A DNA stretch of 64,000 bases, taken from positions 2,108,001 through 2,172,000 of the forward strand of contig NZ_CP119809.1 in NCBI RefSeq assembly GCF_029338395.1, read 5' to 3'. Origin of the DNA: Halorussus caseinilyticus. Its GTDB lineage: Archaea > Halobacteriota > Halobacteria > Halobacteriales > Haladaptataceae. The notes below the pieces were generated by a model. The model saw only the letters and a program-made list of their open reading frames with translations. It made no database searches and was not told where the DNA came from. Position numbers and translations under genes: made by a program. This document shows positions 38,238-54,110 of this stretch, piece after piece. Every line of letters begins with the position of its first letter. The stretch's first letter is position 1.

Positions 38238-38470
38238 GCGCTCGGCCGACCAACCGCCAGCGAACGCTCGGCCGACCAACCGCCAGCGAACGCTCGGCCG
38301 ACCAACTGCCGGGGTGGGATGAAGGGGCCGCCCGCTCGCGTTCATCTTGGTCGCCTCAGCGACCCCTATCTGAGACGAACCGAAGGTGAGTCGAAGATAT
38401 GTCGCTGAGCGACCGCGAGCGGGCGGGGGCTTTCTGGGACTTCTTGGTACCATTCCGGCGGTTGCTACAC
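38238..38470 (+). repeat. Structured intergenic repeat, copy 1 (13-bp outer and 9-bp inner stems)
   Basis: Shared with 52956-53150. CCGCCCGCTCGCG at 38328-38340 pairs perfectly with 38414-38426; inside, CTCAGCGAC at 38355-38363 pairs with GTCGCTGAG at 38401-38409. Alternatively each inner arm folds locally (GGTCGC-CTCA-GCGACC at 38349-38364). The 5' part holds a 26-bp unit (CTCGGCCGACCAACCGCCAG plus CGAACG) in 2.7 tandem copies at 38241-38309. No convincing reading frame. Non-coding RNA, a mobile-element remnant, or a DNA structural repeat are all possible. Confidence 0.6.
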
Positions 38471-38576
38471 TGTTGTAGAGCGGGGGATTTTCCGAGCGTT
38501 CGTCACCACGATTCCGGCGGTCACGATACCGAGTGAGCGAGAACGTCCGAGGACGAAACACGCTAGCAGAAAAACC

Positions 38577-38957: not shown

Positions 38958-39124
38958 TTGTCTTTTAGCAATATATCTGTTTTTTAGAGACCTATTTTTG
39001 TTTCTTAGAGAATTTGCTGTCGTGCCGTCGGGCCGTGACAGACGCGGTAGGAGCCACTTTCGACGGGGACGACCAGCGGACACAGAACCGCGAGGCGAGC
39101 AGAGGGAACGACGAAAGAGACTGG

Positions 39125-39217: not shown

Positions 39218-39330
39218 AGCTTCAGGCTCGAACCTATCAGACCGCGACCGCACCGCTACCGCGGACCACACGCCTCCCCAACCGACTCGCTCACTCGCGC
39301 CGTCGGCGCTCGTTCGCTCGTCCCTCGCGC
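39218..39330 (+). repeat. Intergenic repeat of the GCTTGAACC/ACCGCACCGC family
   Basis: Starts GAGCTAGCTTCAGGCTCGAA, then GACCGCGACCGCACCGCTAC, CGCCTCCCC and a series of CTCGC/GCGCCG blocks. Very close to the first half of the 24786 copy; the long perfect hairpin is replaced by GCGCCGTCGGCGC. The stretch 38958-39480 holds no gene. Confidence 0.5.
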
Positions 39331-39480
39331 GACGATGGCGCGACACGCTCCGCGGTCGCGCCAGCGCGCGCCGGGTCGTCAGTCCCGCCCGGCGCGTCCG
39401 CGGTCAAGTTCCGAACCGAGCGCGTCCACGTTCCCGACGAATGCTAACTTCTAACAACCTGTCCGTCGTACGTCGGTGCC

Positions 39481-51503: not shown

Positions 51504-52145
51504 ATGCCGGAGCGAACACGACGGGCGCTCCTCGCGGTCGGTGGGAGCATCGCGCTCGCGGGGTGTCTGACCGACCTCGGGGGACGCCTCCCCGACGACT
51601 CGACCACGACCCGAGAATCGGACACCGCAGGGGACTGGATAGAACGGGCCTCGAACAGTCCGAACCCCGACCACTCGATACTGGTTCGCAACGAGGCGTC
51701 CGAGTCCCGGACGCTCCGGGTCGAAGTCGTCCGAGAGGCGACGGGCGAACCCGTCTTCGAGACGACCAAAGAGGTGTCGGCGGGCGACGAGTTCACGCTG
51801 TACAACCTCCGAGAGGCCGACCCGGGTGGCGTCGAGACGTTCGAGGTGTGCGCCCGACTCGTCGGCGAGGGGACGACGACCACCGGTTCGGACTCGCCGC
51901 GCCGGGAGTGCGCCCGTCAGCGACCGCAGGCGCGCGTGGGGCTTTCCGGGCCTTCTGCCCCGCGAGTGGGCCAGTCCGACGCAACTCCGTGCCCGATTTC
52001 GACCGTCACGCCGTCGCCTTCCGGAACTCCTTCAGGCCGACGACGACGCCGTCAACGTCCTCGGCGGGCGCGTCGTTCGCGGCCCAGAAGAAAAGGTCCG
52101 CGGCGTCTTCGGGGTCGCGGCCCTGTCCGCCGGTCAGGTCGGTAG
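51504..52145 (+). CDS. Lipoprotein with doubtful C-terminal third
   Basis: From the ATG at 51504: PERTRRALLAVGGSIALAGC, a Tat-like (RTRR) lipoprotein signal with lipobox LAGC. The mature N-terminal part (DHSILVRNEASESRTLRVEVVREATGEPVFETTKEVSAGDEFTLYNL) is a convincing small beta domain typical of haloarchaeal lipoproteins. After about residue 135 the translation turns into Arg/Pro/Ser-rich sequence, and the last 140 bases overlap the SDR gene on the other strand. The true 3' end is probably before 52005, after a frameshift near 51900. A small secreted protein of unknown function. Confidence 0.45.
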   Translation: MPERTRRALLAVGGSIALAGCLTDLGGRLPDDSTTTRESDTAGDWIERASNSPNPDHSILVRNEASESRTLRVEVVREATGEPVFETTKEVSAGDEFTLYNLREADPGGVETFEVCARLVGEGTTTTGSDSPRRECARQRPQARVGLSGPSAPRVGQSDATPCPISTVTPSPSGTPSGRRRRRQRPRRARRSRPRRKGPRRLRGRGPVRRSGR

Positions 52146-52701
52146 CGACCGCGCCGGGGTCCACGACGCCCACGGTCGGGTCGATTTCCGCGGCGAACTG
52201 TCGGACGACCGACTCGGCGGCCGCCTTCGAGACGGCGTAGGACCCGTAGCCCGGTTTCGCGTCGCGGGCGACCGACCCCGAGGGGACCAGCACCCGCGCG
52301 CCCTCGGCGAGGTGGGGCAGGGCCTCCTTGACCGTGGCGAAGACGCCGCGGGCGTTCGTCCGGAAGGAGTCGTCGAACGCGGAGTAGGCGTCGTCGGCCA
52401 GCGGCGTCTCGCCGGGACTCCCGTGGTAGACCCCGGCACAGGCGACTACCACGTCGATGCCGCCGTCGCTCCCGCGGGCCGCGGTCTCCATCAGTCGCTC
52501 CACGTCGAACTCGTCGCGCACGTCGGCGCGCATCGCCTCTACGTCGCCGCCGTCGTCCGCGATGTCCTCGACGGTCCCGTCGAGGGCGTCCTGTTCTCGG
52601 GCGCAGGCGACGACCCGCGCGCCCTCGGCGGCGAACCGCCGGGCCACCGCTTCGCCGATGCCACGACTCGCGCCGGTCACGACCGCAGTCTGTCCGTCCA
52701 T
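52006..52701 (-). CDS. Short-chain dehydrogenase/reductase
   Basis: 231 residues. NAD(P)-binding TGASRGIGEAVARRFA near the start, DVVVACAGVYHG (the NNAG-equivalent), catalytic Ser in VLVPSGSVAR, and the YxxxK motif in YGSYAVSKAAAE. The C-terminal GAVATDLTGG is typical. Classical SDRs reduce or oxidise many substrates; the coenzyme pattern (AREQD after strand 2) suggests NADP but is weak. It overlaps the 3' part of the convergent lipoprotein frame, and this gene is the more believable of the two. Confidence 0.93.
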   Translation of the reverse strand: MDGQTAVVTGASRGIGEAVARRFAAEGARVVACAREQDALDGTVEDIADDGGDVEAMRADVRDEFDVERLMETAARGSDGGIDVVVACAGVYHGSPGETPLADDAYSAFDDSFRTNARGVFATVKEALPHLAEGARVLVPSGSVARDAKPGYGSYAVSKAAAESVVRQFAAEIDPTVGVVDPGAVATDLTGGQGRDPEDAADLFFWAANDAPAEDVDGVVVGLKEFRKATA

Positions 52702-52890
52702 GCCTCACCGGACGGTCTCCGGCCCCAAACCGGTTTCTGCATCGGCCAAGCGTCCGCCGCGGCGTCCGACGAGAGCGGCAAGGAACTGTACTTATTTCCT
52801 TTAGCAATATTTTATTATCCTTAAAAAATTCATGGGTTTGTCTAACAGTTCTAAAGGTTTCTTCTCCCGACTCCGCGAGCGCCCGGCCAA
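52702..52890. other. Gene-free AT-rich stretch before the structured repeat
   Basis: The segment 52790-52850 is AT-rich (TTAGCAATATTTTATTATCC then AAAAAATTC) and is promoter-like for both directions. No gene recognised. Confidence 0.4.
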
Positions 52891-53150
52891 GCGTCCGCCG
52901 CGGCGGACGCTCGGCGCGACGGTCCACGGGGCGCGCTCGCCCCGACAAACCACTGGGACGCGCTCGGCCGACCAACCGACGGGGTGGGGTAAAGGGGCCG
53001 CCCGCTCGCGTTTACTTCAGTCACCTCAGCGACCCCTATCCGAGCGAGCGAACGCAGTGAGCGAGCGAGGATATGTCGCTGAGCGACCGCGAGCGGGCGG
53101 GGGCTTTCGAGACGTTCGTCGTCATGATTCCGGCAGTCGCTGTGCTGTTG
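52891..53150 (+). repeat. Structured intergenic repeat, copy 2
   Basis: The start is a 20-bp perfect palindrome GCGTCCGCCGCGGCGGACGC at 52891-52910. From 52956 it shares block after block with 38238-38470: CTCGGCCGACCAAC, GGGGTGGG, GGGGCCGCCCGCTCGCG, CCTCAGCGACCCCTATC, GATATGTCGCTGAGCGACCG and CGAGCGGGCGGGGGCTTTC. The outer stem is 52998-53010 with 53088-53100 (13 bp), and the inner stem 53025-53033 with 53075-53083 (9 bp). The loop sequence between the inner arms differs completely from copy 1, so only the pairing segments are conserved. Confidence 0.6.
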
Positions 53151-53199
53151 CGGAGGCAGAGAATTTCGAGAACGAACGTACACCTCCAGACACTGCGAC

Positions 53200-53531
53200 G
53201 ACTCCAACGACAGAGACCGCACCGACAGCGACGACTCCAACGACAGAGACCGCACCGACAGCGACGACTCCAACGACAGAGACCGCACCGACAGCGACGA
53301 CTCCAACGACAGAGACCGCACCGACAGCGACGACTCCAACGACAGAGACCGCACCGACAGCGACGACTCCAACGACAGAGACCGCACCGACAGCGACGAC
53401 TCCAACGACAGAGACCGCACCGACAGCGACGACTCCAACGACAGAGACCGCACCGACAGCGACGACTCCAACGACAGAGACCGCACCGACAGCGACGACT
53501 CCAACGACAGAGACCGCACCGACAGCGACGA
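53200..53531 (+). repeat. 33-bp tandem repeat, 10 copies
   Basis: The 33-bp unit starting ACGACTCCAACGACAGAGAC and ending CGCACCGACAGCG is repeated ten times with almost no change. The period is a multiple of three and one frame gives TPTTETAPTAT per unit, like the Thr/Pro-rich linkers of haloarchaeal surface glycoproteins. In that frame there is no plausible start and no stop until 54790, so it seems to be a relic of such a gene, or non-coding. Near-identity of copies implies recent expansion. Confidence 0.9.
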
Positions 53532-53591
53532 AAACGCGGACAGAAACCACACTCCACCACAGTTACGTCCCCGCGGCGTCCACCTCCGGCC

Positions 53592-54110
53592 ATGTTCAGG
53601 CCCGGTCACTACGGCGTGGCGCTCGCGGCGTACGCTCCCGTCGGCGGGTTGCTACTCGCCCGCGGACACCCGACGGCCGCCGTCGCGGGCGGTGCGGGCG
53701 TCCTCTGGTTGACGATGCTCCCCGACTGGGACCACCGCGTCCCGTTCGTCGCCCACCGCGGGCCGACCCACACCCTGCCGTTCGCGGCGCTGGTGGCGGG
53801 CGGCGCGTGGGCGGCCACGAACGCCGCCGCGAGTGCGACCGGTCTCGCCGGTCACGCGGTCGAACCGGTGGCGCTCCCGGCGTTCGCGGCGGGCATCGCC
53901 GCGCTCGCGGTTCTCGCGCACCTCGCGGCCGACCTGCTGACGCCGATGGGCGTGGCGCTTCTGTGGCCCGTCTCGGACGAACGCTACTCGCTGTCGGTGA
54001 CGCCCGCCGACAGCACGCTCTGGAACTACGCGCTGTTCGCCCTCGGCGTCTTCGCGACCGCGGTGGCGGCGTCCCTCGGCGTGGAACTGCTGACTGGTGG
54101 GTCGCCCTGA
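53592..54110 (+). CDS. YdjM-type predicted membrane-bound hydrolase
   Basis: 172 residues from the ATG at 53592. Start MFRPGHYGVALAAYAPVG and the block LPDWDHRVPFVAHRGPTHTLPFAAL are typical of the DUF457/YdjM (LexA-binding, inner membrane-bound metal-dependent hydrolase) family; the Asp-x-Asp-His and His-x3-Thr-His residues are the probable metal site. Four or five membrane segments follow. The same superfamily as the 8056 gene. The frame is open far upstream through the 33-bp repeat but the N-terminal motif fixes the start here. Reaction unknown. Confidence 0.82.
   Translation: MFRPGHYGVALAAYAPVGGLLLARGHPTAAVAGGAGVLWLTMLPDWDHRVPFVAHRGPTHTLPFAALVAGGAWAATNAAASATGLAGHAVEPVALPAFAAGIAALAVLAHLAADLLTPMGVALLWPVSDERYSLSVTPADSTLWNYALFALGVFATAVAASLGVELLTGGSP

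Follow-up and report, generated by a model that had tools for sequence, protein, structure and literature searches.

Dispersed intergenic repeats with a conserved hairpin in Halorussus caseinilyticus and other haloarchaea

We analyzed a 64,000-nt stretch of the Halorussus caseinilyticus genome (contig NZ_CP119809.1, positions 2,108,001 to 2,172,000; hereafter, the window). Two loci in the window, 38238–38470 and 52956–53150, had been described in a first-pass annotation as a two-copy structured repeat with conserved stems and a divergent loop. Both loci lie in long intergenic gaps, as the annotation had stated, and reading and alignment bear out that each contains a 13-bp outer stem (CCGCCCGCTCGCG/CGCGAGCGGGCGG) and a 9-bp inner stem (CTCAGCGAC/GTCGCTGAG). 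Each locus includes a conserved core, but not all of it is conserved: the rest of the first locus is a 26-nt tandem repeat and a degenerate 3' flank, and the remainder of the second also lies outside the core (Table 1).

Table 1. Features of the two copies in the window.
Feature	Position in window	Strand	Details
Core hairpin, copy 1	38314..38434	+	covariance model R1, 136.2 bits; extracted as L001
Outer stem 5' arm, copy 1	38328..38340	+	CCGCCCGCTCGCG; pairs with 38414-38426
Outer stem 3' arm, copy 1	38414..38426	+	CGCGAGCGGGCGG; pairs with 38328-38340
Inner stem 5' side, copy 1	38355..38363	+	CTCAGCGAC; pairs with 38401-38409
Inner stem 3' side, copy 1	38401..38409	+	GTCGCTGAG; pairs with 38355-38363
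Three tandem 26-nt units preceding core, copy 1	38239..38316	+	like the units before most copies, spacing 26
3' flank, copy 1	38435..38495	+	degenerate form of the 57-75 nt unit in which other copies carry a repeated 3' arm
Core hairpin, copy 2	52984..53108	+	R1, 121.3 bits; extracted as L016
Outer stem 5' arm, copy 2	52998..53010	+	CCGCCCGCTCGCG; pairs with 53088-53100
Outer stem 3' arm, copy 2	53088..53100	+	CGCGAGCGGGCGG; pairs with 52998-53010
Inner stem 5' side, copy 2	53025..53033	+	CTCAGCGAC; pairs with 53075-53083
Inner stem 3' side, copy 2	53075..53083	+	GTCGCTGAG; pairs with 53025-53033
Single 26-nt unit preceding core, copy 2	52961..52986	+	
3' flank, copy 2	53109..53540	+	degenerate unit, then 33-nt tandem array rich in ACN triplets

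When the window was scanned with R1, a covariance model of the core, the two copies scored 136 and 121 bits and the next site scored 19.6 bits (the opposite strands of both copies were set aside). In single-strand folding, each copy forms one long hairpin, at -70.6 kcal/mol for copy 1 and -65.0 kcal/mol for copy 2; 0 of 200 shuffled sequences folded as well as copy 1 and 3 of 200 folded as well as copy 2. For both copies, the MFE and centroid structures are identical or nearly so, and the opposite strand folds almost equally well. The loop had been said to lack similarity between the copies, which does not hold as a blanket claim, as most copies carry variants of GAG-CGAACGNAGTGAG-CGAG.

The window also contains a second widespread haloarchaeal intergenic repeat at 39245–39380 (- strand), of the form GCGCGAGGGAYGA-(variable palindrome)-CGGYTGGGGAGG. 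It is also found at L053, L058–L060, L066, L069, L070, L169, L174, L202, and L030, and in other genera it often lies immediately 5' of the core hairpin; CGGYTGGGGAGG is found in 50 of 266 loci. AT-rich intergenic stretches around TTTAGCAATAT...TTAAA were seen by eye at 52797–52835 and 38960–39020 of the window and upstream of L027, L036, and L037. In this GC-rich genome, they are perhaps another dispersed motif.

The two window loci are copies of a dispersed intergenic repeat family. A blastn search of the H. caseinilyticus genome (G000) with copy 1 gave at least 47 matches (the best 40 of 199 candidates were scored), and copies in this genome are 79–95% identical to copy 1. We aligned 36 copies (alignment A2) and derived the covariance model R1 from the pair counts. 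In the 4.39-Mb genome, R1 has at least 108 matches with E ≤ 1e-3, at least 93 of which have 60 bits or more (among the best 150 of 8265 candidates). After removing four of 86 matches (one duplicate, two opposite-strand matches, and one 34-bit match), we extracted 82 copies with their flanks. With at least 82 full copies and at least 108 model matches in its own genome, the repeat is clearly not a two-copy one.

According to a simple codon-usage gene finder, 81 of the 82 extracted copies are intergenic, and the remaining one is probably a wrong gene call. Relative to the core, the upstream and downstream genes are in the same and same orientation for 31 copies, opposite and same for 22, opposite and opposite for 17, and same and opposite for 11. 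The orientation of the upstream gene is even (42 to 39), so the space behind genes is not preferred. The downstream gene is on the core's strand for 53 of 81 copies. Both window copies do end in GCGGGCGGGGGCTTTC, as the first-pass annotation had reported, but this end is not terminator-like: there is no T run, and a scan for terminator patterns and non-archaeal promoter patterns found neither at the window copies. Given these results and the even orientation of the upstream genes, we rejected an intrinsic terminator.

In nearly all copies, the core is 103–135 nt long. It opens with GRNGGACTGAAAGGGGC, which varies, and closes with GGGGGCTTTC, and the 13-bp outer arms sit within GAAAG...CTTTC ends. 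The consensus from G000 runs from GTGGGATAAAGGGG to the outer arm CCGCCCGCTCGCG, a bulge on the 5' side, an inner stem of GGTCG and CTCAGCGAC, an asymmetric internal loop (CCC against T), the pairing TATCC:GGATA, and the variable loop, and then returns along the mirror strand to GGGGGCTTTC. Of 76 copies, 24 have a local hairpin of 4 bp or more within the 5'-side bulge. Most copies are preceded by 26-nt units. The firmer sign of these is the spacing, which is 26 in 58 of 92 listed gaps; the count of units is loose because the unit is partly palindromic, and in 25 of 82 copies the reverse strand also yields one hit or more. ACN-rich tails lie 3' of 12 of the 82 copies.

Among the copies that we examined, 51 (23 from G000 and 28 from other genomes) carry, downstream of the core, a second GGGCTTTC-type end with an arm-like stretch before it. 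In G000, this downstream unit is usually 57–75 nt from end to end. In the 28 copies from other genomes, the repeated 3' arm matches the copy's own arm at 9.79 against 6.81 of 13 positions (0 of 5000 shuffles, which cross species). Within G000, this tracking is weak (160 of 5000 shuffles). For the arm tracking, as for the ortholog pairs described below, we picked clear matches by hand rather than using every match.

We considered whether the copies might be a chromosome-polarity or segregation motif and rejected this: the 88 of 93 strong matches that lie on the main contig are randomly spaced (CV 1.04), and a runs test gave z of -1.27. Cargo between inverted pairs of cores was also rejected, as the four cases viewed contained ordinary genes alone. 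Three near-identical cores (L002, L003, and L004) lie within 8 kb of each other on contig C1 of G000 (1923785–1931039), and their flanks differ, a pattern that local gene conversion would produce.

The core fold has 35 pairs. In A2, 98.3% of cells are paired (versus 36–45% for slid controls), 12 of the 35 pairs changed on both sides, and 0 of 500 shuffles reached the covariation score. Three further alignments were fitted to R1 and lean towards the model: A3 (83 distinct rows) has 97.5% of cells paired and 19 pairs changed on both sides; A6 (53 rows from fetched Halorussus loci) has 95.3% and 23; and A5 (50 rows from Halosimplex, Halopiger, Haloarcula, MAG, and other loci) has 95.1% and 29. 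Across five measures of covariation, 0 of 500 shuffles did as well for all five in A3, A5, and A6; in A2 this was true of four, with 7 of 500 for pair types. Conservation of the stem in more distant copies had been named as a test beforehand, and the covariation in A3, A5, and A6 shows that the stem is kept. The family therefore has the covarying base pairs that are used as a criterion for structured noncoding RNAs.

Among 5498 cells of A3 to A5, we counted 467 Watson-Crick double changes, 86 G-U pairs, 44 A-C mismatches, and 133 other mismatches. (For this count, we removed duplicate rows, along with those in which fewer than 75% of the pairs were Watson-Crick, and this took the three sets from 86 to 81, from 36 to 33, and from 50 to 45 rows.) The low share of G-U pairs may point to constraint at the level of DNA, to gene conversion, or to template switching. 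That G-U outnumbers A-C by 2:1 may hint mildly at selection on RNA, and it is partly a bias of aligning to the model.

Searching haloarchaeal genomes with the covariance model and counting copies per genome, both of which had been proposed, revealed a wide family with patchy copy numbers. In an order-wide scan with R1, at least 116 of 293 genomes and at least 41 of 78 genera have matches with E ≤ 1e-3 (among the best 12 candidates per genome). GC-rich hairpins that match by chance may account for the weakest of these. Within the genus, copy number varies from 0 (G008), 1 (G013), 6 (G004), and 10 (G003 and G014) up to at least 61 (among the best 61 candidates per genome). In a plasmid collection, 13 records from Halorussus, Haladaptatus, and Haloarcula have matches; a phage collection has no match to the core hairpin. 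An exact pattern is found in 77 stretches of genome contigs and in no viral contigs. From the phage and viral-contig results, we rejected a link to phages. The 77 stretches are from taxa that include Halorussus ruber, H. halobius, H. aquaticus, H. salinisoli, H. litoreus, and H. amylolyticus, and from genera that include Halosimplex, Haloarcula, Halomicroarcula, Halopiger, Halostagnicola, and Halobacterium. A Rhodobacteraceae MAG (L204) matched the exact pattern and not R1, and we took this to be chance. In Halopiger goleimassiliensis (L198, L190, L167, and L227), there is an inverted relative whose GACTGAAAGGGGCCG...CGGGGGCTTTC ends are those of the element and whose interior differs; it is oppositely oriented and a few hundred bp away from the core.

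We compared the site of copy 2 by eye in 12 relatives, using 52001–52740 and 53551–54105 of the window as flanks. The site is empty, with the flanks at most 40 bp apart, in seven of them (G013, G014, G016, G009, G004, G005, and G002). In G007, the site carries a copy oriented as in the window, and G011 has an inverted copy (L104) that was seen by eye and not reported by R1 at E ≤ 1e-4. Two others (G003 and G010) have unrelated DNA at this site, and the site is rearranged in G006. At the site of copy 1, G015 carries a copy (L072) that is oriented alike and whose arms differ considerably.

When we compared the flanks of the listed copies, we found nine pairs with both flanks in common between genomes. 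All nine are in the same orientation, which fits inheritance better than random insertion. At the seven such sites that are shared with G000, the identity of the cores is 0.80–0.92, versus a median of 0.84–0.89 to other copies in G000: the core is no closer to its counterpart at the same site than to other copies in its own genome. In five of these seven ortholog pairs, both arms differ and yet still pair. In another of the seven (L112 against L164), the 3' arm alone differs, and a mismatch is left.

G003 and G014 are a closer pair of genomes. They have five copies in common with similar flanks, and the aligned pieces are 88–96% identical; at a sixth site, both have cores and the intergenic DNA is unrelated. 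For two copies that are unique to one of these genomes, the intergenic stretch in the other genome is unrelated, with aligned flanks that are 89–95% identical. At these two sites, we found neither a clean target site nor a target duplication. Since the whole intergenic stretch differs, rather than there being a precise insertion, the repeat may move through gene transfer or when intergenic DNA is replaced. Overall, the many copies, their patchy number, and the occupied and unoccupied orthologous sites support the other reading that the first-pass annotation had offered, a repeat of unknown mobility.

The main rival explanation, which we consider possible but rather unlikely, is that the core is a class of structured noncoding RNA or RNA domain that has multiplied in some genomes. 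Selection would then act on the hairpin as + strand RNA, which might, for instance, serve intergenic transcripts in processing, stability, or protein binding. The covariation across genera, the excess of G-U over A-C, and the strand of the downstream genes are consistent with this. Also, on the Haloarcula plasmids pNG500 and pHH126, where the neighbor of the core is annotated as a SOSS complex subunit B family gene, a conserved TATA-like TATATAAA box lies 257–258 nt 5' of the core. Of six aligned Haloarcula-type sequences long enough to cover this position, five contain the box and one (JP-L23) does not. This box is the strongest pointer to a putative transcribed form and leaves an RNA reading viable there. 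In contrast, no box of this kind was seen before the window copies, G-U pairs are very few, the upstream genes are evenly oriented, and around 100 divergent copies would be unusual for a single RNA gene. Rfam 15 families resemble the core in their pair covariation, but none matches it: at the gathering score, the window has no match other than one tRNA; seven loci have none up to E = 1; and pNG500 has three weak matches, one of them over the core with E = 2.5. A specific version of the RNA reading, a noncoding RNA with two states formed by alternative local hairpins, is not supported. The pairings GATGAA:TTCATC (copy 1) and GTAAA:TTTAC (copy 2) seemed to point to such switching, but one fold dominates, and across 76 copies GATGAA:TTCATC does no better than shuffled pairings, so the alternative pairing is not a feature of the family. 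Separately, a long inverted repeat, GGAAAGACAC...GTGTCTTTCC, lies between the SOSS-B-like gene and the core in pNG500 (L263, 3481–3620) and pHH126 (L264) and is possibly a plasmid replication region.

The covariation could also arise without any selection on the fold, if these are neutral intergenic palindromes in which one arm is rewritten from the other by template switching, with gene conversion then spreading the variants. Double changes do dominate over single ones, adjacent pairs change together in blocks, and the mechanism has been proposed for RNA stems (in the accessible part of PMC8794818). We nevertheless think this improbable, because the unpaired CCC against T, a GGG against GGG, and the bulge persist across genera and should have been erased, and because different genera also share the conserved flanks GACTGAAAGGG and GGGCTTTC. 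A small protein gene at first seemed convincing: a frame from GATATG encodes MSLSDRERAGAF, followed by hydrophobic units of 19–25 residues that end in SERAGAF and then by Thr-rich tails, into which the frame stays open in several copies; the lengths of the 3' units are mostly multiples of three; and the second codon position is the least variable. It became scarcely credible once stops, start loss, and frame changes were counted. Among 65 distinct copies ending in CTTTC, the first codon past the core is a stop in 10, and a stop lies within 66 nt in 16; the synonymous fraction is 0.408 in frame versus 0.388 in the next frame; many copies have no ATG; and by eye the frame is different in Halosimplex. 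Three translations had no NCBIfam match and, in Pfam, a weak mucin match alone (E = 0.32).

As for how the repeat might move, its conserved hairpin, its many intergenic copies with a transposase-free interior, and the five IS605 TnpB genes in G000 would suit a palindrome element that is moved by a Y1 transposase, of the REP/RAYT type or the IS605-derived PATE type. But Y1 (PF01797) has no match in G000 (in a control search, 5 of 14 genomes were positive), nor in G010, G002, G009, G016, or G001, and these six genomes hold 30 to over 60 copies. Y1 is present in 10 of 18 genomes of the genus, with no evident relation to copy number. Furthermore, at the five TnpB loci of G000 and 10 Y1 loci of relatives, R1 found nothing better than E = 0.086. 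We judge movement by Y1 to be highly improbable. Reverse transcriptase (PF00078) has no match in any of the 18 genomes of the genus (3 of 14 genomes were positive in the control), and we rejected a retro-mobilized element for G000. A MITE would be expected to share its terminal repeats with an autonomous transposon and to carry a target duplication; we saw no transposon with the ends of the core among the scanned TnpB and Y1 loci, and no duplication at the two unique G003 and G014 sites.

Our searches of the openly available literature, which takes in few subscription papers, turned up no account of this family, and the accessible parts of PMC3402447 and PMC5496347 contain nothing on it. Judging from the accessible parts of the papers cited here, the closest concept is SMR-A and SMR-B of Haloquadratum walsbyi (Dyall-Smith et al. 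2011, PMC3119063). These are 80–110 bp long, without a transposase and with prominent terminal inverted repeats that are unrelated to known transposons; they cause no target duplication, are present in tens of strain-patchy copies, and their mobilization was called enigmatic. Unrelated DNA at one position in two Haloquadratum strains was explained there as deletion-coupled insertion. Our family is similar in its size of around 110 bp (the core is 103–135 nt, and its reading frame has no convincing family hit), its inverted repeats, its lack of a transposase, its tens of patchy copies, and the unrelated DNA at matching sites, as at the two unique G003 and G014 sites. However, identity within an SMR type is commonly over 95%, whereas here it is 79–95% to copy 1, and SMR-A targets PATE/IS605 palindromes, whereas this family sits between ordinary genes (81 of 82 copies). 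Also unlike SMRs, as far as their published description goes, this family is flanked by tandem units at either side, and its internal fold covaries. REP/REPIN elements with RAYT are likewise high-copy extragenic palindromes with a conserved hairpin (PMC3116915, PMC2817692, PMC3733652), but REPs are 20–40 bp (PMC3733652) and are linked to a Y1-type transposase, which G000 lacks. PATEs, which are related to IS605 (PMC3119063), are transposase-free, palindromic, and haloarchaeal, but our family has no similarity to the TnpB and Y1 loci that we scanned.

That these loci belong to a dispersed repeat family, an unusually well structured and widespread one, is firm. With moderate confidence, we read it as short intergenic repeats that occur across the haloarchaea and lack a transposase, with a conserved hairpin and with copies that are homogenized within genomes. 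The mechanism that we infer is that a putative enzyme of the host or the element would recognize the hairpin, most likely as a DNA structure, and would copy or move it into intergenic DNA. Gene conversion, which is documented in polyploid haloarchaea (in the accessible parts of PMC8223754 and PMC11276520), would then homogenize the copies within one genome, so that the two arms change in step. A bolder version, which we offer tentatively and consider doubtful, is that this is an order-wide class of hairpins that evolves in concert and whose spread involves no transposase or reverse transcriptase of a known kind. At inherited sites, the arms, the inner stem, and the extra 3'-arm copies downstream would be rewritten to match the type of their genome, with pairing preserved. 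If so, concerted rewriting would represent a novel way of maintaining repeats, and it might go together with gene conversion in polyploid cells and with entire intergenic stretches being replaced.

Covariation is taken as a mark of RNA function, so strong pair covariation in what may be mobile DNA, and not RNA, matters for RNA discovery. The covariance model of the core can be applied to any haloarchaeal genome, and the family offers many natural replicates for testing how transposase-free repeats multiply and are homogenized in polyploid archaea.
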